In this document: piece by piece, positions 31,180 through 40,646 of the stretch
How positions within the stretch are numbered: position 1 is the first letter of the stretch
Layout: every line of letters begins with the position of its first letter
Assembly: GCA_017645765.1 (NCBI GenBank)
Contig: JAGCNV010000093.1
Span: 1-40,646 of the forward strand
Source of the DNA: a bacterium
Lineage (GTDB): Bacteria > UBP6 > UBA1177
Direction of reading: 5' to 3'
DNA: 40,646 nt
Notes under the pieces: generated by a model
Database searches by the model: none
What the model saw: only the letters and a program-made list of their open reading frames with translations
Told to the model about the DNA's origin: nothing
Program-made: the position numbers and the translations under genes

Positions 31180-31270
31180 AGAACCTCTTTTTGTACAAAA
31201 AACCGCTCACTTTTAGCAAAAATAAAGAATATTACAAGTAAAAAAGATATAAAATTATACCTAATTTGTA

Positions 31271-31293
31271 GAGACGTCATATCATGGCGTCTC
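31271..31293. repeat. Palindromic hairpin element
   Basis: GAGACGTCAT (31271-31280) and ATGGCGTCTC (31284-31293) form a ten-pair stem with one G-T pair and a three-base loop ATC. It resembles the AGAGACGnnn...CGTCTCT palindromes I recall as dispersed intergenic repeats in varied bacteria. Whether it is a repeated element or a terminator cannot be told from one copy. Confidence 0.5.
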
Positions 31294-31431
31294 TTATAAT
31301 GATGGCGTTCCATTTTTTACCGGCATTAACCACGCAGCCGTTCCCTAATTTGCCATGGTGACTTTTTACAATTAAGTATTAATTTTTTTAGTAGTTAACT
31401 AAAATAATATTTTAAATTATAGAAAATAAAC

Positions 31432-31503: not shown

Positions 31504-32541
31504 ATGGTATCAGAAAAACAGATGAATGAACTGGTAAAAACAAACAATGTTGTTTTTTATCAGACGGAAAACGCGGATGTTGTCGTAAATGTGGTTTACA
31601 AAGATGAAACTTTCTGGCTTACACAGAAAGCGATGGCTGTGCTGTTCGATTGCAGTGTGGATAATATTTCTCTACACTTAAAAAACATTTATGACAGCAA
31701 TGAACTTGAAAAAAATCGAACTGTCGAGGATTTCTCGATAGTTCAAAAAGAAGGCAACCGGTCAGTCAAACGCTCAATGGAATTTTACAATCTCGATGCG
31801 ATTATCGCAGTCGGCTACCGCGTAAATTCCAAAAAAGCGACAAAATTCAGACAGTGGGCAACAAAAACTCTGCGAGAATACATCACCAAAGGTTTTGTCA
31901 TCAACGAAAAACTTCTGAAAAACGGAAAGCCGTTCGGCAAAGACTATTTTGACGATTTACTTGAAAAAATACGCGAGATCAGAGCGAGTGAACGTCGTGC
32001 GTATCAGAAAATCACCGATATTTTCGAGCAGTGCAGCTGCGATTTCGATAAGAACAGCGAAATCACCAAAAATTTTTATGCTTTCGTGCAGAATAAACTT
32101 CATTTTGCAGTAAGCGGAAATACTGCCGCTGAAATTGTTTACAACCGTGCCGATTCGCGGAAAGAGCACATGGGACTGACAACATGGAAAAACTCGCCTG
32201 ACGGAAAAATTTATGAATCCGATGTCATAATCGCCAAAAATTATCTGAATGAAAAGGAGATCTCGCGCCTGAACCGCCTTGTCGCAATGTTCATCGACTA
32301 CGCCGAGTTGCAGGCTGAGGACGGTCATCTGATGAAAATGCAGGACTGCGTTGATGCTGTGAACCTTTTTTTAACGAGTGCCCGCCAGCAGGTGCTCGAA
32401 ACCAAAGGAAAAATCAGCCACGATCAGGCGATAAAAAAGGCTCTTAAGGAATATGATGTTTTCCGCATCATTCAGGACAGAGAATATATTTCAGAATTTG
32501 ACAGACAGACAAAAGAACTCGAAAAAAACAATCAGAAATAG
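31504..32541 (+). CDS. RhuM-family (virulence RhuM) protein
   Basis: A 345-aa protein of the RhuM family, widely found on pathogenicity and defence islands. Family segments: FYQTENADVVVNVVYKDETF, WLTQKAMAVLFDCSVDNIS (a helix-turn-helix-like start), the invariant-looking YNLDAIIAVGYRVNSKKATKFRQWAT and a C-terminal DYAELQAEDG. No catalytic residues are established to my knowledge; DNA binding is likely for the N-terminal part. AGAGGA precedes ATG 31504. It is alone on the plus strand between murG and the type III toxin-antitoxin locus, and its stop is 10 bases before a direct-repeat copy. Confidence 0.87.
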   Translation: MVSEKQMNELVKTNNVVFYQTENADVVVNVVYKDETFWLTQKAMAVLFDCSVDNISLHLKNIYDSNELEKNRTVEDFSIVQKEGNRSVKRSMEFYNLDAIIAVGYRVNSKKATKFRQWATKTLREYITKGFVINEKLLKNGKPFGKDYFDDLLEKIREIRASERRAYQKITDIFEQCSCDFDKNSEITKNFYAFVQNKLHFAVSGNTAAEIVYNRADSRKEHMGLTTWKNSPDGKIYESDVIIAKNYLNEKEISRLNRLVAMFIDYAELQAEDGHLMKMQDCVDAVNLFLTSARQQVLETKGKISHDQAIKKALKEYDVFRIIQDREYISEFDRQTKELEKNNQK

Positions 32542-32551
32542 ATTGATCTTT

Positions 32552-32622
32552 ACCTCAAGCCACGATTTTTGGAGATGTTCAGGATTGCAGGGAACCGTTC
32601 CGGAGTGCCTTAACGGACGCAG
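32552..32622. repeat. Direct repeat copy 1: truncated 3' end of a DUF1566-type gene
   Basis: This stretch matches 33404-33474 at a constant offset of 852 bases with about ten mismatches and no gaps; the shared core is GATTTTTGGAGAT, TTCAGGATTGCAGG and TAACGGAC. On the minus strand it ends a reading frame with ...IIICVR-stop, the characteristic Lcl_C/DUF1566 C-terminus, but the frame is cut after ten residues by TAA next to the toxN end. It is therefore the tail plus downstream region of a lost paralogue, or a duplicated integration site. Confidence 0.8.
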
Positions 32623-32647
32623 ATGATTATTCCAATTTCCGCTTAAA

Positions 32648-33139
32648 CTATTTGCCTTGATATTGAGTGTATATCTGCTCAAGCAGTTTAATATCGCAGC
32701 ATCTTTGTTTGATGCGGATTTCGTAGTCTGCGAGTTCACTATCATCGGAAAGCAGCAGTTCTCGGAGCAAATTGGCCGTTTTCTGTATCTGAACAGTGTC
32801 GCTGCGGATTGCTTTGTATTGATTCTGCAAAAGACGGCGGTATTTTTCGTCGCTGATTTTTTCTATGTCAATAAGAATTAAAGCCGAATCCGTTACAGGA
32901 ATCATGTTGTTAAAATTGATTGCTCCGTATAAACCACCGGCTATTTTCCTGAAATCTACAGCATTTTTCATGGTTTTGTGTTTCGGTTTCGGGGAAGAAA
33001 ACGGTGCGTAGTATTTCACGCTGCCTATTTCAAGAACGATTCCGACATAAGGTCTGGTTTCGTGCTTGTTATCAGCAACTTTTTCATCATATCTTCTAAG
33101 AAAGTTTATGTAATCATCTTTCACATGATAAAATCTCAT
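32648..33139 (-). CDS. toxN: Type III toxin-antitoxin endoribonuclease, ToxN/AbiQ family
   Basis: A 163-aa ribonuclease toxin. Recognised by MRFYHVKDDYINFLRRYD at the N-terminus, RPYVGIVLEIGSVKYYAPFS, SPKPKHKTMKNAVDF, and GAINFNNMIPV, which are the ToxN/AbiQ core including the conserved Lys/His-rich SPKxKH loop. Family length is 160-180 aa. These enzymes cut A-rich sites in RNA and are held inactive by a repeat RNA antitoxin; several abort phage infection. ATG 33139 follows a GGGGG stretch. Directly upstream are the repeat RNA and its terminator, the classical locus order. Strong call. Confidence 0.93.
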   Translation of the reverse strand: MRFYHVKDDYINFLRRYDEKVADNKHETRPYVGIVLEIGSVKYYAPFSSPKPKHKTMKNAVDFRKIAGGLYGAINFNNMIPVTDSALILIDIEKISDEKYRRLLQNQYKAIRSDTVQIQKTANLLRELLLSDDSELADYEIRIKQRCCDIKLLEQIYTQYQGK

Positions 33140-33147
33140 TTTTCCCC

Positions 33148-33178
33148 CTAAAAAAACAAAGGGCGGATGAACCGCCCT
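33148..33178 (-). terminator. Terminator between the antitoxin RNA and toxN
   Basis: GGGCGG (33177-33172) and CCGCCC (33166-33161), loop TTCAT, followed on the minus strand by TTTG and seven T. A perfect six-pair G+C stem with T tail. In type III systems this terminator sets the antitoxin:toxin ratio by allowing only part of transcription into the toxin. The A-run on the other side makes it potentially bidirectional. Confidence 0.9.
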
Positions 33179-33289
33179 TTTTTAAGTCCTCTGTTGTGGT
33201 CGAGGCTCACCGCTTTTTTAAGATTTCGCTTAATGGTGGAAACTCACCGCTTTTTTCAGTTTCCAATTAAGGTCGGAACTTACCTGCGC
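33148..33289 (-). ncRNA. Type III antitoxin RNA (ToxI/AntiQ-like tandem repeats)
   Basis: Three tandem units on the minus strand begin at 33284, 33248 and 33211 (spacing 36 and 37) and a fourth partial begins at 33174 inside the terminator (spacing 37). Units start GGTAAGTTCCGACC, GGTGAGTTTCCACC and GGTGAGCCTCGACC; each can pair GGT(G) with (C)ACC, and A-runs (AAAAAAG) precede the second and third units. Period, number, A-rich boundaries and this GGTGA...ACC pattern match the pseudoknot-forming ToxI/AntiQ antitoxins. The units are diverged from each other, which argues against simple recent slippage. Confidence 0.88.
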
Positions 33290-33294
33290 CAAAA

Positions 33295-33322
33295 ACTTTA
33301 GTCGTTTTTTATTGGAAGTCAA
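33295..33322 (-). promoter_or_regulatory. Promoter of the type III toxin-antitoxin locus
   Basis: Minus strand TTGACT (33322-33317), 16 bases, TAAAGT (33300-33295). The start point would be about 33288, just before the first antitoxin repeat. The -35 is strong, the -10 moderate. Confidence 0.65.
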
Positions 33323-33362
33323 GAGAATTTTATAATAAATTAGAAAAATATTTATTGTTTGG

Positions 33363-33402
33363 ATTCAAAAAGATTAAATAGATGTCAGCGCCGTCTGACG
33401 TT
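33363..33402 (-). terminator. Candidate terminator of the giant modular gene
   Basis: GTCAG (33384-33388) pairs with CTGAC (33395-33399) and the stem can extend by three A-T/G-T pairs. Downstream on the minus strand is a T-rich stretch (TATTTAATCTTTTT). Weak to moderate. Confidence 0.4.
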
Positions 33403-33403
33403 C

Positions 33404-33474
33404 ACCTCAAACCGTGATTTTTGGAGATCTTCAGGATTGCAGGAAAGCGTTGCGGACTGCCCTAACGGACACAC
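33404..33474. repeat. Direct repeat copy 2: native 3' end of the giant modular gene
   Basis: The intact counterpart of 32552-32622. It holds the stop codon (33462-33464) and last codons of the giant Lcl_C gene plus 58 bases of downstream sequence. The antitoxin promoter, repeat RNA and toxN lie exactly between the two copies. Confidence 0.8.
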
Positions 33475-36400
33475 ATAGTATTTTGTCCGCTGTCATAGGT
33501 ATTTTTAATCTCCATAGAACCGCCGTTATACCGAACCGTCCAGATATTAGTATAGCCGGTGGTATAAAATGGATTTGTGGAAGAAGACCATGGCGTAGAC
33601 ATCAAATTTATATTCGGGAAATCAGATGCACGGTTATAGTTAAGGTTGAGAAGAGAAAGAAGTTCAAAAATGTTCGGTAACCGCCAGTCAGTGTATCCGG
33701 CATAAGTTGAATTTTCGCAGTAGGCAAGTGCTAATTTCCAAGTGTCGAATTTTGCAAAGTTTTTATTCCAGATAAGTCCGGTGAGGTTATCCGTAACAAT
33801 TTCATCTCCGTTTCTGGTCGAGACAGTTAATGTCGGACTTTCAGGTAGAATTTCACCCCTTACGCAACGGACATAGAGCGTGGTGTCATTGGAATAAAAC
33901 TTCAATTCACCACCATAATAACTATGAAAATCTATGCCCCAAGAATTAGCAGAGTTGCGTGCATATTTTTTTGATGTCCAGAAAGCACTGTCGCTGCTTA
34001 TTCCTCCTGCAAAATAAGTTGTATCCACTGGAGGATCGTTCCGACTGTAATCAACTATACTCAGCATCTCTTTCGGTTTCGGGAGTCTCCAGTCAGTGTA
34101 TCCTGCATATTCAAGATCCGCGCAGTAACTTATCGCATGCTGCCAGTCAAATTTGTCTGCCGGAATACTCTTCTGCCATTCGAGACCGAGATTATTGTCA
34201 ACTACAACTTTTTCTTCAGGATGTCCGACATCTGGAGTTTTTATAGTAAAACTTTTCGGTGTACATGCTCCTGCTTCTGTATATTGCGCATCCTGCCCGT
34301 AGAACTCTCCGCTTTCCGCACAGCTTATCTCATTAGCGGAATCGTCATAGCATTTTATTATTCCTGTGCAGATATTGCCGAAAGCATGTTTTGTCATGCA
34401 TCTCGAACCGTTCCAGAAGTAACCGTTTATGCAGCCGCAGGTAAATTTTGTTCCGTCTATCGGAGTGCATATTCCGTCTGAACCGTCCATCGAAGCGCAC
34501 TTGTTGTCAAAACACGGATCGGTTTGGCAAGTTGAGCTTTGTGCATCCCAGATATATCCTTCAACGCAGCCGCACGAAAATTCGCTTGCAGTCAACGGAA
34601 TACATATTCCGTCTGAATGTTCCATAGTGCAGGAGTTTGCCGTACACGGACTCGGCTCACAGTTTTTCCCGGACAGAAATTCTCCTTCCCCGCACAAATC
34701 GGAGCGGACACAACGCGTCAGCGGCATATTATAGTTGTTTGTTTTACTGCGTGTACTAACCTCACCGCTGGAAAAGTTGGCATACACAACGTTTCCGGTG
34801 CTGTAATTAAGTGTCGTTGTAGAAGACCAGAAAGTTTTGGAAGGCATATTCGGAAAATCCGAAGCGGGACTCTTTGCTTCATAATTTACAAGGGAAATAA
34901 GTTCGTTGATATTCGGAAGTCTCCAGTCCGTGTAACCGCCGTAATTCAGGTTTTCGCAGTATACAAGAGCATCGTTCCAGAGCATGTCCTCTGCATAACT
35001 TTTTTGCCAATAAAGATTGGTAGTCAAATCTTTTATGACTTCATTACTTACGTTCTCAAATGATGAGTTTTCCGGCATAGTGTGTTGAGGGTCGGTATCT
35101 CTTACGCAAATAAAATTGCCGCTATAAGTTTTTGTGTAAGTAGTAAGTATTCCCGATCCACTGGAAATCCACCATGCTTTATTTCCATCTGCCAACGATT
35201 CGTTGTTCGTCCAGAACCAACCAGAAGTTTCATTAAAATAGTCAGTGTTGAATGCGGGATTTAATTTTCCATAATCAATAATTGTCTGCCATTCTTTGAC
35301 GGTCGGCAGTCTCCAGTCCGTGTATCCTCCGAAACCGAGTTCTTCGCAGGAAGTTACAGACTCTCCCCATGATTTTGTGCGTACAGTTCTGTCCCATTCA
35401 AGCCCCGTATTATTGTCAATAACAGTTTTCTGGGAAGAAGTTCCGCCAAAAACAAATTTTTTAGGTATGCAATAACCCATGTCGGCATACTGTGCATCCT
35501 GACCGTAGAAATCATCTCCTTCTTGAGCACAGCCCGTTTCTGTCTCGTTGTCGTAACATTTAAGAGTCCCAGTGCAGAGATTGCCAAGTGCCACGTTTTC
35601 CGAGCGGCAACCGGTCTTGCCCCACCAAAGGTATTCTTCTTCACATTCACAGGAATAAGGCAGAGAGAGGTTGTTTGTTTCTTCACATACTCTCGTAGAA
35701 TTATTAACATCGTCACACGGATTATGTTCACAAGGATGATCTACACATTTGCCGTCCAGCGGATAATAACCTGTATCGCAGACATATTTACATTCGGTAT
35801 CGCTTGCAGCTACGCTATACTTAGGTTCAAGCGTCGGAATCCATTTTTTGCCGTCCCAAGTTTGAGTAATAGTAGGTGCATAGTTCCACAGTGAATGCTC
35901 GGGACGCGGGTTGCAGTCCATGATTCTTGTGTTTGCGACACACGTTCCGTTGCCGTCCCATGAATAGTTTTCCCTGCATTTGAAACGGCATTCCGTCAGG
36001 CTTTCCTCTTCGCTGAAAATTCCGGAATCACCGGGTTCCCATGCCGCCCCTTTCCATTCCTGCAAAACTGTCGCGACCGAGTTCCACTGCGCGTTTTGTG
36101 GAAGTCCCCGGCAAGGTACTGTCTGTTTCTTTGCGACGCAAAGACCGCCCTTCCACTCGTAATTGTCAAAGCACTTGAAAATGCAGTTTTCAGTCGTCGG
36201 TGTTTCGCCGAAATCACCTGAAAGTTTCGGCAACCACTCGCTTCCGCTCCAAGTCTGAGTGATGCTTTCAACCGAGTTCCACTCTGCGTTTGCCGGAAGG
36301 CCCGTACAGTCTCTCGTTCTTGTCGCAGGAACGCAGGATTTCTGGTCATCGGAAACAGTGTAGTTTTCAAGGCACTTGAAGCGGCACTCTTCAGTTGTCG

Positions 36401-39400
36401 GAGTTTCACCGTATGAAGCTGTCTTCGAAGGTATGAACTTTTCGCCGTCCCAGTGCTGTGTGATGCTTGAAGCACTGTTCCATTCAGCATTCGCGGGCTT
36501 TTCTTCACAGTTTTCGATTTTGGTTACCGGATCGCAAGTCAATCCGTTCCAGTTGTAGTTGGTGTCGCAGTGGAAACGGCAGAGATTCTGGTTCGAAGTG
36601 TCGGATGCACTGTAGCTGCCTGCTGTCGGCGGGAACCATTCAGTGCCGTTCCATGTCTGGTTGACGCTTGTCTTCCACCATGTCGCGTTCTCGGGTTTCG
36701 TTTCGTTGTCGCAGTCGACGTTGGGATTACTGTCGGCTACGCATGCAGTATTTTTCCAGGTGTAGTTTTCGTTACATCCGAAGTAGCATCGGTTGTTTTC
36801 GGGCGTGTCGTTGTAGCTTGCGACCGCCGATGGTGACCAGCCGCCGTTCGTCCATGTCTGCGTGATCTCTGTCGAATCGTTCCACCAGTGCGCGTTCGCC
36901 GGAAGCCCTGTGCAGGTCGCGGGCTGTGTTTCGGCTACACATATATTGTTTTCTTCATCCCATTCGTAGTGTTCCTTGCAGACAAAGCGGCACTCTTCTT
37001 CGCTTGATTCTTCGTTGTAAACAGAGGTCGCCGACGGGATCCAGTTTTCGCCGTCCCATGTCTGCGAGATCCTGGAAACTACGTTCCACTCTGAGTAAGG
37101 TTTCTTTTCTGAGCACTGAGCCAATTTTGAAACCGGACGACATTTTTCTTCGTCTGTATCCCATGTGTAGTTTGTCGCGCACACAAATCTGCATTCGGTC
37201 GAACTCTTGACCTTGTTGAACGTACCTACTTCGCTAGGATACCACTTGTCGCCGTCATAAGTCTGGCTGATGCCGAAAACGGTGTTCCAGACTGCGTTTT
37301 CAGGCAGACCTTCGCAGGCGATGTATCTCGTCGTTCCGAGGAGACACTTTGCATGGTTCCAGTTGAAGCCCGATTTGCAGCCGCAGGTGAAGTCGTATCC
37401 GTTTGCTGTGCAGAGTCCTGTCGAGTTTGCCATATCTTTGCACTGGTCAAATCCGCATGCGTTCGGACATTCGCCGCCGAAGCACGGATCATCGTTTCTT
37501 ACGCAGATTATGTATTTTGTGTCAGTCTTATCCGCAGATTTAATGCTTCCGTCTGCAAAATCGACTGTCCATGCTTCTGCTCCAGCGGTCTCTGAGCCTG
37601 TCGAAGCCATCGAAGTAGTCGAAGTCCAGAAACCTTTTGCAGCTATTGCAGGGAAATCGCTCATTGCGCCGCTTGCTTTCGTATAGTCAACAAGGGAAGC
37701 TAGTTCGTTTCTGTTCGGAAGTCTCCAGTCAAATTTGTCTGCCGTCGAAACTTCTTCGCAGTAGCTAAGTGCTTCAGCCCATGTTCTTGAAGCAACTGCC
37801 TGTTTCTGCCACATAAGGCCGCTCTCGTTGTCTTTGACAGTTTCGTTTTCTTCGGTGAAGCGGCTTTCTGCCGGAGTGTAGTTGCTGAGGTATCTGACGC
37901 AGAGAACATGGTTTTCATTTGTCTTTGCAACGCTTGCAAGAGCGCCGTTTTCCGTTACTTTCCAGGCGTTTTCATTGTTTCTGCTCTCTTCCGCAGCCCA
38001 GAATGTATGGCCGTAAGCCGTGAATTTTTCTCCGAGAGCGGGGCTTGCCGTGCCGCTCTCAACGATCGTGAGCAGTTCATCCGGGCTCGGGATCCTCCAC
38101 TGTGCAACAGTCGAACTCTCATTGTTGAGTGTCGAGCAGTATTCGTCTGCCGCAGCCCAGTTCATCGCGTTTTCGCTTGTTGCAGCGATCCATTCGTAAT
38201 GAGTGTAGATGTCTTTTACAATCTTCTTTTCGCCGCTTCCTTCCTCCATGAATTTGTGCTCCGTGCAGTAGCCGGCATCCATGTACTGTGCATCCTGACC
38301 GAAGAAGGATTCGCCGTACTCAGGGCAGACTGTGTCTGCTGTGTTGTCAAAGCATCCGGTTGCTCCGGTGCAGATCAGGCCGAGTGAAAGCGGACTTTCA
38401 AGGCACTGGCTGCCGTTCCATCTGTAGCCTTTGGTGCACGAGAAGACGCATTCGTCTTTCGTTGTGTCGTCGTACTGTGCGCTCTTGATTGCAGGAGCCC
38501 AGTCTGAGCCGTCATAAATCTGCGAGAATGTCCCTTCGCCGTCATTCCACTGTGCGTTTGCGGGAAGGTTTCCGCACTTAGCTGCCTTTCTTGTACAGTT
38601 GTTTGCCGTGATATAACCCGAGCAGTCAGATGCGCACGGTGCCGAGCCCGTTGATCCTGAATCTCCTAAACCGGCGATTTCAGCACATGCCTTTGAGCCG
38701 CCGTCGCAGTGCTCTGCAGGAGCGTCGATTATGCCGTCGCCGCAGTCTGCCGCCTTTCCGCATTCATGCTTGTCGAACGTGCAGGTATCAGGATCGCAGA
38801 CTGCTGTTTTTTCAGGATAGGTCGATGCAGGATAGATCGTTCCGCAGGAAACAGGGGCCGCAAGTGAAGGTTCGCACTCTTCAGCTGAATCGACTATGCC
38901 GTTGCCGCATGCGTTCTTTGCTACGACCTTGATTTCCTTTTCGTTCTTGTCTTTGTGAAGCGTTATAGCTTCAAGGTATCTGTAAAGATCCTCGCCTACT
39001 GCAAGAAGCGTGTATCTGCCTGAGGCTATTTCGATATTTACTTTGTCGTAAGTATTGGTCTCATTGTTGAACTTAGCCGCTTCGTTCGCTACAAGCTCCA
39101 TGTAATCGTTGTAGATCTGGATGTAAACCTTCGACGGATGCTTTGCAGTATCGATTTTTACAGAAAGCTCAAGGCTTGCATCTTCCGAGTTCGTAAGCTC
39201 TTTGTCAAGCTTGATCTCAACGCTGAAATTTGCGCCTGCCGGAACATTTACGCTCGTGCTCTTTGCGTAGTAACCGTCTGCATAAGCGTCGACTGTGTAT
39301 GCCGCCGGAGTAAGGTTTTCAATGCTTACTACGCCGTCAACAGGATAGTAAACCTTGTTGCCGGGATTCATGATTATCATCGGATTTGCATCGTCTGCTA

Positions 39401-40646
39401 TCTGGTGCCCCGTTGAATCATGGACAAGGATCTGAATATCTGCCGGAACTTCCTTCGAGCTGACACCGTCGCTGTCACTATTGACGAAGAATTCGTAAGT
39501 TCTCTGTGTCGAATAGGTTTTGCCGGAAATCTTAGAGTTCGCGACTATCGTCATTTTTCCTGTGATGCTGCCGAGAGAATCGACATTTTCAGAACCGAGA
39601 AGCTCTTTAAGAGCCTTTTCGCCCTGTGAAAGTGTTCCCGGAGTGAGAACTATCGACTTTTCCTTGAGATCGCCAGTCTGTTTGTAGTAAGTTCTCGTAT
39701 TTTCCTGAACTTTTTCAAATTCTTTTCCTTCGATATTTATAAGAACTTTTTCTACATCCGCGCTTGATGCAGCAACTTTGAGCGAAATTTTGTCGGTAAG
39801 TGCGCTCAGCTTCGTGATGTAAGGTCTCGTTACCATGTTGTTGCCGTCGTCAAGAACCTGTACCGTGTGAGCCGATGCGTCAAACGAGTCGGCTATGCTG
39901 ACTGCCTTTGCGTTGTCGTCGATACCGTCAAAAACAAGGTATGCGGTTTTGAGAAGTGAATCGTTCAGCTCTTCGACATCCGAACCGTTATAGAAAATCG
40001 TGCCTGCATATTTGAGGGCAAGGTAGAATGTTCTGAATAGGTCGAGTTTTTCTGAATCGCCAAGTCTGCTGTTCATCGGCATGAAGTGTTTTGTAAAGAT
40101 CGCATTTGCCTCTGCCGCGCTTACTTCCGTGCCGCCCAGCGTTACATGTCCCGCCTCGTTGATCGTGTAAACCTTGTTGCAGTTCTGCGCCGGTGTATCG
40201 GGATTGAACCACGCGCAGACAAGCTGATCGGGATTGAGAACCGAGGAAACAGAGTTGAAATTAGGTCCTTTTGATGAAGTCGTGATGTAGTTCGCGAAAA
40301 TCATCATCTCTTTCTTTGTCGCGGTGTATCTTTCTGCCGCGTCGGAATTGCCTGTGAGTGCTGCCTTTGCCTTCGAAGTATAGTCTTCAGGAGCCGTGCC
40401 GCTGTAAGTAAGCGGGATCATCGACGGATCAAACATGTCGGCAAGGGTCGTGCTTCTGTTGTGCGAAGTCGTTGCCGTGTAAAGTGCCGCGATCGCGCTA
40501 CGCAGTTCAAGACCGTTCTTGACTGCCGCGACGCTGTTTCCGCGTTTCGCCTTCATGCGGTTGTAGAACTCTTTTACAAAGAAAAGGTTCTCGAAAAGAT
40601 TGAGGTTTCTCTGGAAGCCGACCTGTTTGTTGATAAGCTCGTAAAG
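33462..40646 (-). CDS. Giant modular secreted protein with six DUF1566/Lcl_C domains (5' partial)
   Basis: At least 2,394 aa; the frame is open to the right edge, so the true start lies outside and the Met at 40556 is internal. From the N-side: an unrecognised ~400-aa region; a carboxypeptidase-regulatory-like beta domain (about 38950-39500); Cys-rich CGNGIVDSAEECE and CGDGIIDAPAEHC units (38690-38930); one ~65-aa Cys repeat; two Lcl_C domains (37490-38240); an EGF-like unit; eight more Cys repeats (35730-37335); Lcl_C pair 2 (34690-35430); two EGF-like units; Lcl_C pair 3 (33462-34240). Each Lcl_C carries a TDWRLPN-like motif and ends near CVR. Three copies of an LCTG...CYDN...FYGQDAQY module precede the pairs. 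Lcl_C has a C-type-lectin-like fold; adhesion is the likely role. Secretion signal not visible. Confidence 0.88.
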   Translation of the reverse strand, partial: LYELINKQVGFQRNLNLFENLFFVKEFYNRMKAKRGNSVAAVKNGLELRSAIAALYTATTSHNRSTTLADMFDPSMIPLTYSGTAPEDYTSKAKAALTGNSDAAERYTATKKEMMIFANYITTSSKGPNFNSVSSVLNPDQLVCAWFNPDTPAQNCNKVYTINEAGHVTLGGTEVSAAEANAIFTKHFMPMNSRLGDSEKLDLFRTFYLALKYAGTIFYNGSDVEELNDSLLKTAYLVFDGIDDNAKAVSIADSFDASAHTVQVLDDGNNMVTRPYITKLSALTDKISLKVAASSADVEKVLINIEGKEFEKVQENTRTYYKQTGDLKEKSIVLTPGTLSQGEKALKELLGSENVDSLGSITGKMTIVANSKISGKTYSTQRTYEFFVNSDSDGVSSKEVPADIQILVHDSTGHQIADDANPMIIMNPGNKVYYPVDGVVSIENLTPAAYTVDAYADGYYAKSTSVNVPAGANFSVEIKLDKELTNSEDASLELSVKIDTAKHPSKVYIQIYNDYMELVANEAAKFNNETNTYDKVNIEIASGRYTLLAVGEDLYRYLEAITLHKDKNEKEIKVVAKNACGNGIVDSAEECEPSLAAPVSCGTIYPASTYPEKTAVCDPDTCTFDKHECGKAADCGDGIIDAPAEHCDGGSKACAEIAGLGDSGSTGSAPCASDCSGYITANNCTRKAAKCGNLPANAQWNDGEGTFSQIYDGSDWAPAIKSAQYDDTTKDECVFSCTKGYRWNGSQCLESPLSLGLICTGATGCFDNTADTVCPEYGESFFGQDAQYMDAGYCTEHKFMEEGSGEKKIVKDIYTHYEWIAATSENAMNWAAADEYCSTLNNESSTVAQWRIPSPDELLTIVESGTASPALGEKFTAYGHTFWAAEESRNNENAWKVTENGALASVAKTNENHVLCVRYLSNYTPAESRFTEENETVKDNESGLMWQKQAVASRTWAEALSYCEEVSTADKFDWRLPNRNELASLVDYTKASGAMSDFPAIAAKGFWTSTTSMASTGSETAGAEAWTVDFADGSIKSADKTDTKYIICVRNDDPCFGGECPNACGFDQCKDMANSTGLCTANGYDFTCGCKSGFNWNHAKCLLGTTRYIACEGLPENAVWNTVFGISQTYDGDKWYPSEVGTFNKVKSSTECRFVCATNYTWDTDEEKCRPVSKLAQCSEKKPYSEWNVVSRISQTWDGENWIPSATSVYNEESSEEECRFVCKEHYEWDEENNICVAETQPATCTGLPANAHWWNDSTEITQTWTNGGWSPSAVASYNDTPENNRCYFGCNENYTWKNTACVADSNPNVDCDNETKPENATWWKTSVNQTWNGTEWFPPTAGSYSASDTSNQNLCRFHCDTNYNWNGLTCDPVTKIENCEEKPANAEWNSASSITQHWDGEKFIPSKTASYGETPTTEECRFKCLENYTVSDDQKSCVPATRTRDCTGLPANAEWNSVESITQTWSGSEWLPKLSGDFGETPTTENCIFKCFDNYEWKGGLCVAKKQTVPCRGLPQNAQWNSVATVLQEWKGAAWEPGDSGIFSEEESLTECRFKCRENYSWDGNGTCVANTRIMDCNPRPEHSLWNYAPTITQTWDGKKWIPTLEPKYSVAASDTECKYVCDTGYYPLDGKCVDHPCEHNPCDDVNNSTRVCEETNNLSLPYSCECEEEYLWWGKTGCRSENVALGNLCTGTLKCYDNETETGCAQEGDDFYGQDAQYADMGYCIPKKFVFGGTSSQKTVIDNNTGLEWDRTVRTKSWGESVTSCEELGFGGYTDWRLPTVKEWQTIIDYGKLNPAFNTDYFNETSGWFWTNNESLADGNKAWWISSGSGILTTYTKTYSGNFICVRDTDPQHTMPENSSFENVSNEVIKDLTTNLYWQKSYAEDMLWNDALVYCENLNYGGYTDWRLPNINELISLVNYEAKSPASDFPNMPSKTFWSSTTTLNYSTGNVVYANFSSGEVSTRSKTNNYNMPLTRCVRSDLCGEGEFLSGKNCEPSPCTANSCTMEHSDGICIPLTASEFSCGCVEGYIWDAQSSTCQTDPCFDNKCASMDGSDGICTPIDGTKFTCGCINGYFWNGSRCMTKHAFGNICTGIIKCYDDSANEISCAESGEFYGQDAQYTEAGACTPKSFTIKTPDVGHPEEKVVVDNNLGLEWQKSIPADKFDWQHAISYCADLEYAGYTDWRLPKPKEMLSIVDYSRNDPPVDTTYFAGGISSDSAFWTSKKYARNSANSWGIDFHSYYGGELKFYSNDTTLYVRCVRGEILPESPTLTVSTRNGDEIVTDNLTGLIWNKNFAKFDTWKLALAYCENSTYAGYTDWRLPNIFELLSLLNLNYNRASDFPNINLMSTPWSSSTNPFYTTGYTNIWTVRYNGGSMEIKNTYDSGQNTMCVR
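35730..37335 (-). repeat. Eight tandem ~65-aa Cys-rich repeats inside the giant protein
   Basis: Units share C-x-LPANAEWN, ITQTWDG-x-x-W-x-P, then ECRFKC and NYxWxxxxCV. They are about 195 bases each and similar in DNA as well as protein. A ninth, isolated unit is at about 38393-38592. Four to six Cys per unit suggest disulfide-stabilised extracellular modules. I do not know this repeat as a named domain. Confidence 0.85.

Follow-up and report, generated by a model that had tools for sequence, protein, structure and literature searches.

A triangular 3:3 complex is a criterion of type III toxin-antitoxin systems of the ToxIN/AbiQ kind. A review presents repeats as a key feature of type III systems and assigns the ToxN family chiefly to Firmicutes and Fusobacteria, naming neither spirochaetes nor Treponema (PMC5086642). 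In known ToxINs the toxin cuts A-rich sites, and Tandem Repeats Finder has been used to verify arrays (PMC8860590). CptIN of Eubacterium rectale has two 45-nt units in a 2:2 complex (PMC4627078), and phages have escaped ToxIN through expansion of a ToxI-like repeat or through recombination with toxI (PMC3475682).

The window, by which we mean the whole 40,646-nucleotide stretch of DNA analysed, comes from a gut bacterium and carries on its minus strand a type III toxin-antitoxin locus in which a promoter-like site, three units, a terminator, AGGGGG and toxN follow one another 5' to 3' (Table 1). An earlier note had described a classical order, and its promoter-like site, repeats, terminator and ToxN gene were each found in the sequence; its span, 32648-33322, has the -35 box and the stop codon as its exact limits. 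The locus shares its toxin family and main active-site residues with ToxIN of Pectobacterium atrosepticum and E. coli and with AbiQ/antiQ of Lactococcus lactis (PMC8860590, PMC5086642), as it does the units of ~36 nt, the H-type pseudoknot pattern, the A-rich borders and the terminator between antitoxin and toxin. Unlike in these systems, the array opens without a leader on the first of exactly three units, the units are only 61-76% identical and are conserved by position, and the host belongs to none of the groups that the text of the 2016 review names. Judged from its sequence, the locus is probably a complete and active type III system, and we put the probability at roughly 0.9 that it is a new member of the ToxIN/AbiQ family whose distinctive trait is its diverged, position-conserved monomers.

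Table 1. Positions of the toxIN features and flanking sequences in the window.
Feature	Position	Strand	Basis
Promoter-like site: -35 TTGACT (33322-33317), -10 TAAAGT (33300-33295), 16-nt spacer	33295..33322	-	consensus match
toxI monomer 1, predicted pseudoknot: S1 GGT/ACC, S2 TTCC/GGAA	33261..33284	-	pattern scan and covariation
A6 run, monomer 1/2 border, predicted ToxN cut site	33251..33256	-	sequence
toxI monomer 2, predicted pseudoknot: S1 GGT/ACC, S2 TTTC/GAAA	33224..33248	-	pattern scan and covariation
A6 run, monomer 2/3 border, predicted ToxN cut site	33214..33219	-	sequence; A-rich cleavage in known ToxINs
toxI monomer 3, predicted pseudoknot: S1 GGT/ACC, S2 CCTC/GAGG	33188..33211	-	pattern scan and covariation
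Intrinsic terminator between toxI and toxN: 9-pair stem, T run	33158..33180	-	hairpin scan
Shine-Dalgarno-like AGGGGG ahead of the toxN ATG	33144..33149	-	read from sequence
toxN, 163-aa ToxN/AbiQ-family endoribonuclease	32648..33139	-	ORF and profile match
Flanking copy A, 76-bp sequence known from ends of DUF1566 genes	32549..32624	+	repeat comparison
Flanking copy B, 76-bp sequence, overlaps DUF1566 gene end	33401..33476	+	repeat comparison

The toxin matches PF13958 ToxN_toxin over the full profile length (E=4.8e-53, 180 bits against a cut-off of 25) and PADLOC AbiQ (E=2.5e-43), and by sequence it matches four solved structures in the PDB: ToxN of E. coli, Pectobacterium and Bacillus, and AbiQ. 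These matches agree with the family to which it had previously been assigned, the ToxN/AbiQ endoribonucleases, and the profile and PDB sequence matches suffice to establish its fold. Residues R29, S48, S49, K51 and Q107 align with K33, T52, S53, K55 and Q117 of E. coli ToxN, while W57 and N79 are not conserved, being replaced by K53 and lying opposite a gap, respectively. K33 is an arginine in two E. coli clusters, 4-5, and the E. coli mutants W57F and N79L lose toxicity (PMC8860590). Because arginine occurs in place of K33 elsewhere and W57 and N79 are needed in E. coli ToxN, activity of the toxin here is likely, not certain. No relative was found among IMG/VR viral contigs. Like CptIN, the locus has an RNA pseudoknot antitoxin and the same gene order; membership of CptIN was rejected because there are three units of 36-37 nt, not 45, and the toxin belongs to PF13958 and matches ToxN/AbiQ structures.

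The promoter-like site agrees with the consensus at 9/12 positions and is weak evidence alone, since 0.7 such sites are expected by chance in the stretch; it lies within a block, conserved with L008 and L009, that is 95% identical to the locus of a second species. Terminator-like sites number five in the stretch compared with 0.4 in shuffles, and the hairpin ahead of toxN, which is followed by GTTTTTTT, is the strongest of them, bearing out its reading as a terminator. A partial fourth repeat had also been proposed. It is lost on inspection: AAAAAAGGGCGGT looks like the start of a repeat, yet it is unable to form a unit and belongs to the terminator stem as its 5' arm.

In ToxIN systems the toxin gene is immediately preceded by units of ~34-36 nt in tandem, and the three units found here form such an array. 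A pattern scan placed the starts of their first stems at 33284, 33248 and 33211, a spacing of 36 and 37 nt. Each unit follows an H-type pseudoknot pattern, S1(3)-L1(3)-S2(4)-1-S1'(3)-L3(6-7)-S2'(4), and they parse as GGT AAG TTCC G ACC TTAATT GGAA (monomer 1), GGT GAG TTTC C ACC ATTAAGC GAAA (monomer 2) and GGT GAG CCTC G ACC ACAACA GAGG (monomer 3), so that the GGT-ACC pairing claimed for three 36-37-nt repeats is kept in all three. Among 500 dinucleotide shuffles of the stretch, none gave three units of this pattern and four gave two.

Across the window locus and related loci, stem 2 is perfect, with four Watson-Crick pairs, in 35 of 37 monomers, compared with 10.9 (sd 2.6, maximum 20) when the 3' partners were re-dealt 5000 times with equal placement freedom. 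In a fixed-length alignment all cells pair and both sides change in 43 cells (12.5 when shuffled, 0-6 when slid), but stem 2 was brought into register manually, which biases this alignment to the structure and makes the re-dealing control the fairer one; stem 1 is GGT/ACC or GGC/GCC throughout the alignment. The pattern in every unit and the covariation of stem 2 support the reading of each toxI unit as an H-type pseudoknot. Nested folding favours pairing of the monomer 1 3' strand with the monomer 2 5' strand, in competition with the pseudoknots; by inspection, this pairing is weaker in the L008 sequence. The proposed covariance search had no success, in that the repeats matched no Rfam model and no antitoxin was matched at gathering thresholds or at E<=1. 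Covariance models cannot represent pseudoknots.

Pairwise identity among the three window units is 0.61-0.76 over 36-37 nt, consistent with the difference in about a third of positions that had been noticed. Tandem Repeats Finder reported no repeat in the array because the units are too diverged, and verification of arrays with this program (PMC8860590) would therefore miss the locus. Since diverged units escape the repeat finders used for verification, type III systems are probably under-counted, and probably most strongly outside Bacillota, Fusobacteria and Proteobacteria.

We compared the window locus with L008, which belongs to another species of the genus. Units in corresponding positions show 95-100% identity (mean 0.97), whereas units within one locus average 0.69; the toxI block is 95% conserved, toxN 83% and the upstream DNA 52%. 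The same holds for the three-unit class of the genus (0.97 at the same position, 0.72 within a locus), for its two-unit class (0.96 and 0.57) and for four Treponema loci (0.90 and 0.73). The suspicion that the antitoxin consists of non-identical monomers is thereby strengthened to position-specific units kept across species. Going by same-position identity and by the conservation of the toxI block above that of toxN, the divergence is maintained and is not decay.

Unit heterogeneity is not peculiar to this locus and forms a continuum. In 57 distinct arrays of at least three units, the mean identity between units ranges from ~0.65 to 1.00 in cleanly parsed arrays, with a median of 0.78 in all and 11 arrays at 0.95 or more; parsing gives some false fourth units in distant loci, and only the ends of this distribution are to be trusted. 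The window array has a value of 0.66, close to the bottom of the range. It had been called less usual than well-studied loci, which holds for its place in the range and has to be qualified by the continuum and by the commonness of diverged units in the toxin's own clade; three differing, equally folded units are a mild departure from the usual near-identical repeats. Ordered non-identical units were not found described in the literature searched, a weak absence given that the founding classification paper (doi 10.1093/nar/gks231) lay outside the search.

How else might these units be explained? In a degenerate ToxIN the repeats would be decaying, with units that have drifted apart and do not all still work. 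Their low identity, the empty result of Tandem Repeats Finder and the presence elsewhere in the window's genome of a broken toxN that retains its antitoxin (L007) would fit such decay, but pairing is kept in all three units through compensating changes, each unit matches its counterpart in the other species more closely than the toxin gene does, and the reading frame of toxN is intact, so that decay is very improbable. It is also unlikely, though less so, that one or two monomers alone bind ToxN and that the rest are spacers or control elements acting, for instance, on terminator read-through or on the anti-phage range. Different jobs would be expected to produce position-wise conservation, and monomer 1 lies at the predicted transcription start and has a 5' tail that is not A-rich, unlike those of monomers 2 and 3; however, both stems, including the GGT/ACC of S1, are kept in all three units, which would be needless in a spacer. 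Finally, the failure of Rfam to match the repeats might suggest that they are unrelated to toxN, as a leader or a CRISPR-like repeat would be. Against this, most of the ~100 ToxN relatives inspected have a like unit directly upstream and the parts in identical order, leaving that idea almost no credence.

For the favoured reading, an antitoxin array of diverged pseudoknots, we infer from the sequence how processing, the toxin-RNA ring, toxicity and defence would work and why the units diverge. One promoter would produce an RNA that ends mostly at the terminator, with read-through supplying ToxN. A6 runs at both internal unit borders are expected, since ToxN cuts A-rich sites, and cutting of the toxI RNA within them would yield three pseudoknots of 36-37 nt; as monomer 1 begins ~4 nt past the predicted transcription start, one cut only would free it. 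The pseudoknots would keep ToxN inactive, most likely in a three-toxin, three-RNA ring, and with unlike sequences sharing one fold such a ring could hold different monomers. If the supply of toxI dropped, for example on phage shutdown of host transcription, free ToxN would cut A-rich RNAs and growth would stop. Because phages are known to escape by recombination with toxI, protection from recombination is a plausible reason for diverged units, and the maintained divergence probably guards the array against loss or gain of units by this route.

A further proposal, which we hold tentatively and consider rather doubtful, is that the antitoxin is an ordered hetero-oligomer, in which three unlike RNAs with separate conserved roles form a ring with ToxN, the type III antitoxin of this genus having branched out into ordered designs of one, two and three units. 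Candidate roles, to be taken just as cautiously, are cutting order, affinity and the ability to withstand phage mimics and recombination. Diverged units amount to a natural mutagenesis of ToxI that shows which bases are free to change while pairing stays, and with them it can be asked whether ToxIN tolerates or needs a ring of unlike RNAs.

Among the 28 species compared in this small phylum, at least one ToxN-like locus was found in 15/15 genomes of the genus and in 0/13 others; the window's genome has seven, one of them broken. In a ToxN tree that carried long-branch warnings, and was relied on solely for the well-supported clade of the window toxin, the toxin groups with those of Lachnospiraceae, Oscillospiraceae and Treponema, apart from the other ToxNs of its genome; the six copies tested need at least five changes. 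This placement suggests exchange of ToxN among gut bacteria. The toxin is 51-65% identical to those of rumen Treponema loci (L037, L039, L041, L043, L044) and of Lachnospiraceae/Oscillospiraceae loci (L038, L040, L042, L045-L055), which share the pseudoknot. Several of these loci have equally diverged, position-specific units, but unit order and sequence have no one-to-one match to those of the window.

By inspection and pattern scan, three-unit antitoxins in the window's genome are those of the window locus and L007, and single-unit antitoxins are those of L004, L005 and probably L006. In L007 (G000:C65:14356-14559), as in L030, toxN is broken after about 70 residues and the promoter and antitoxin are still there, making L007 an orphan antitoxin in a genome with working-looking toxins. 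Two-unit antitoxins occur at L002 and L003, in the window's genome, and at L013, L016 and L024; their two units are ~57% identical and differ in stem 1, GGT/ACC as against GAC/GTC. A single-unit class (L004, L005, L018-L021, L025-L028, L033, L034) reads GGT CTC CATT A ACC, an inserted hairpin of varying sequence (e.g. GCGGG/CCCGC, GCGGC/GCCGC) and GATG, with the terminator directly after. Further single-pseudoknot antitoxins are found in other species at L014, L015 and L017, and probably at L006, an example being AGG ATG TCGC G CCT TTGACT GCGA, which lies between promoter and terminator. Type III antitoxins without repeats would conflict with the usual definition.

Homology with L008 and L009 spans 32660-33346 and then ends, indicating that promoter, toxI and toxN move together. 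The toxIN sits between the two flanking copies, which are 84% identical to each other, and no third copy was found in the window's genome. In G014, the region upstream of murG is 90-92% identical and is directly followed by a single 76-bp copy, to which copy A is 92% identical over 64 bp, and a DUF1566 gene; neither RhuM nor toxIN is present at this matching site. By this comparison, the window locus is an inserted cassette and G014 has the site without the insertion. The flanks were also considered as integron attC or hairpin sites and rejected, as they have no special fold and the copies in other genomes adjoin DUF1566 genes. Positions 33462-40556 encode a 2364-aa protein of repeated DUF1566-like cysteine-rich blocks, and the 76-bp sequence is met again where the paralogues of this protein end in G014 and G005.

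The RhuM-family gene at 31504-32541 (PF13310; PADLOC candidate defence PDC-S05) is unlikely to be a toxIN component, since RhuM genes 98-99% identical to it occur elsewhere in other species without toxIN or its flanks. It moves independently, and homologues also lie near the toxN loci at G000:C65 and G013:C28. A short palindrome, GTAGAGACGTCATATCATGGCGTCTCT, lies at the insertion junction (about 31266-31295), and similar sequences upstream of two other toxN loci, L023 and L034, suggest that it is perhaps a small repeated element serving as an insertion site.
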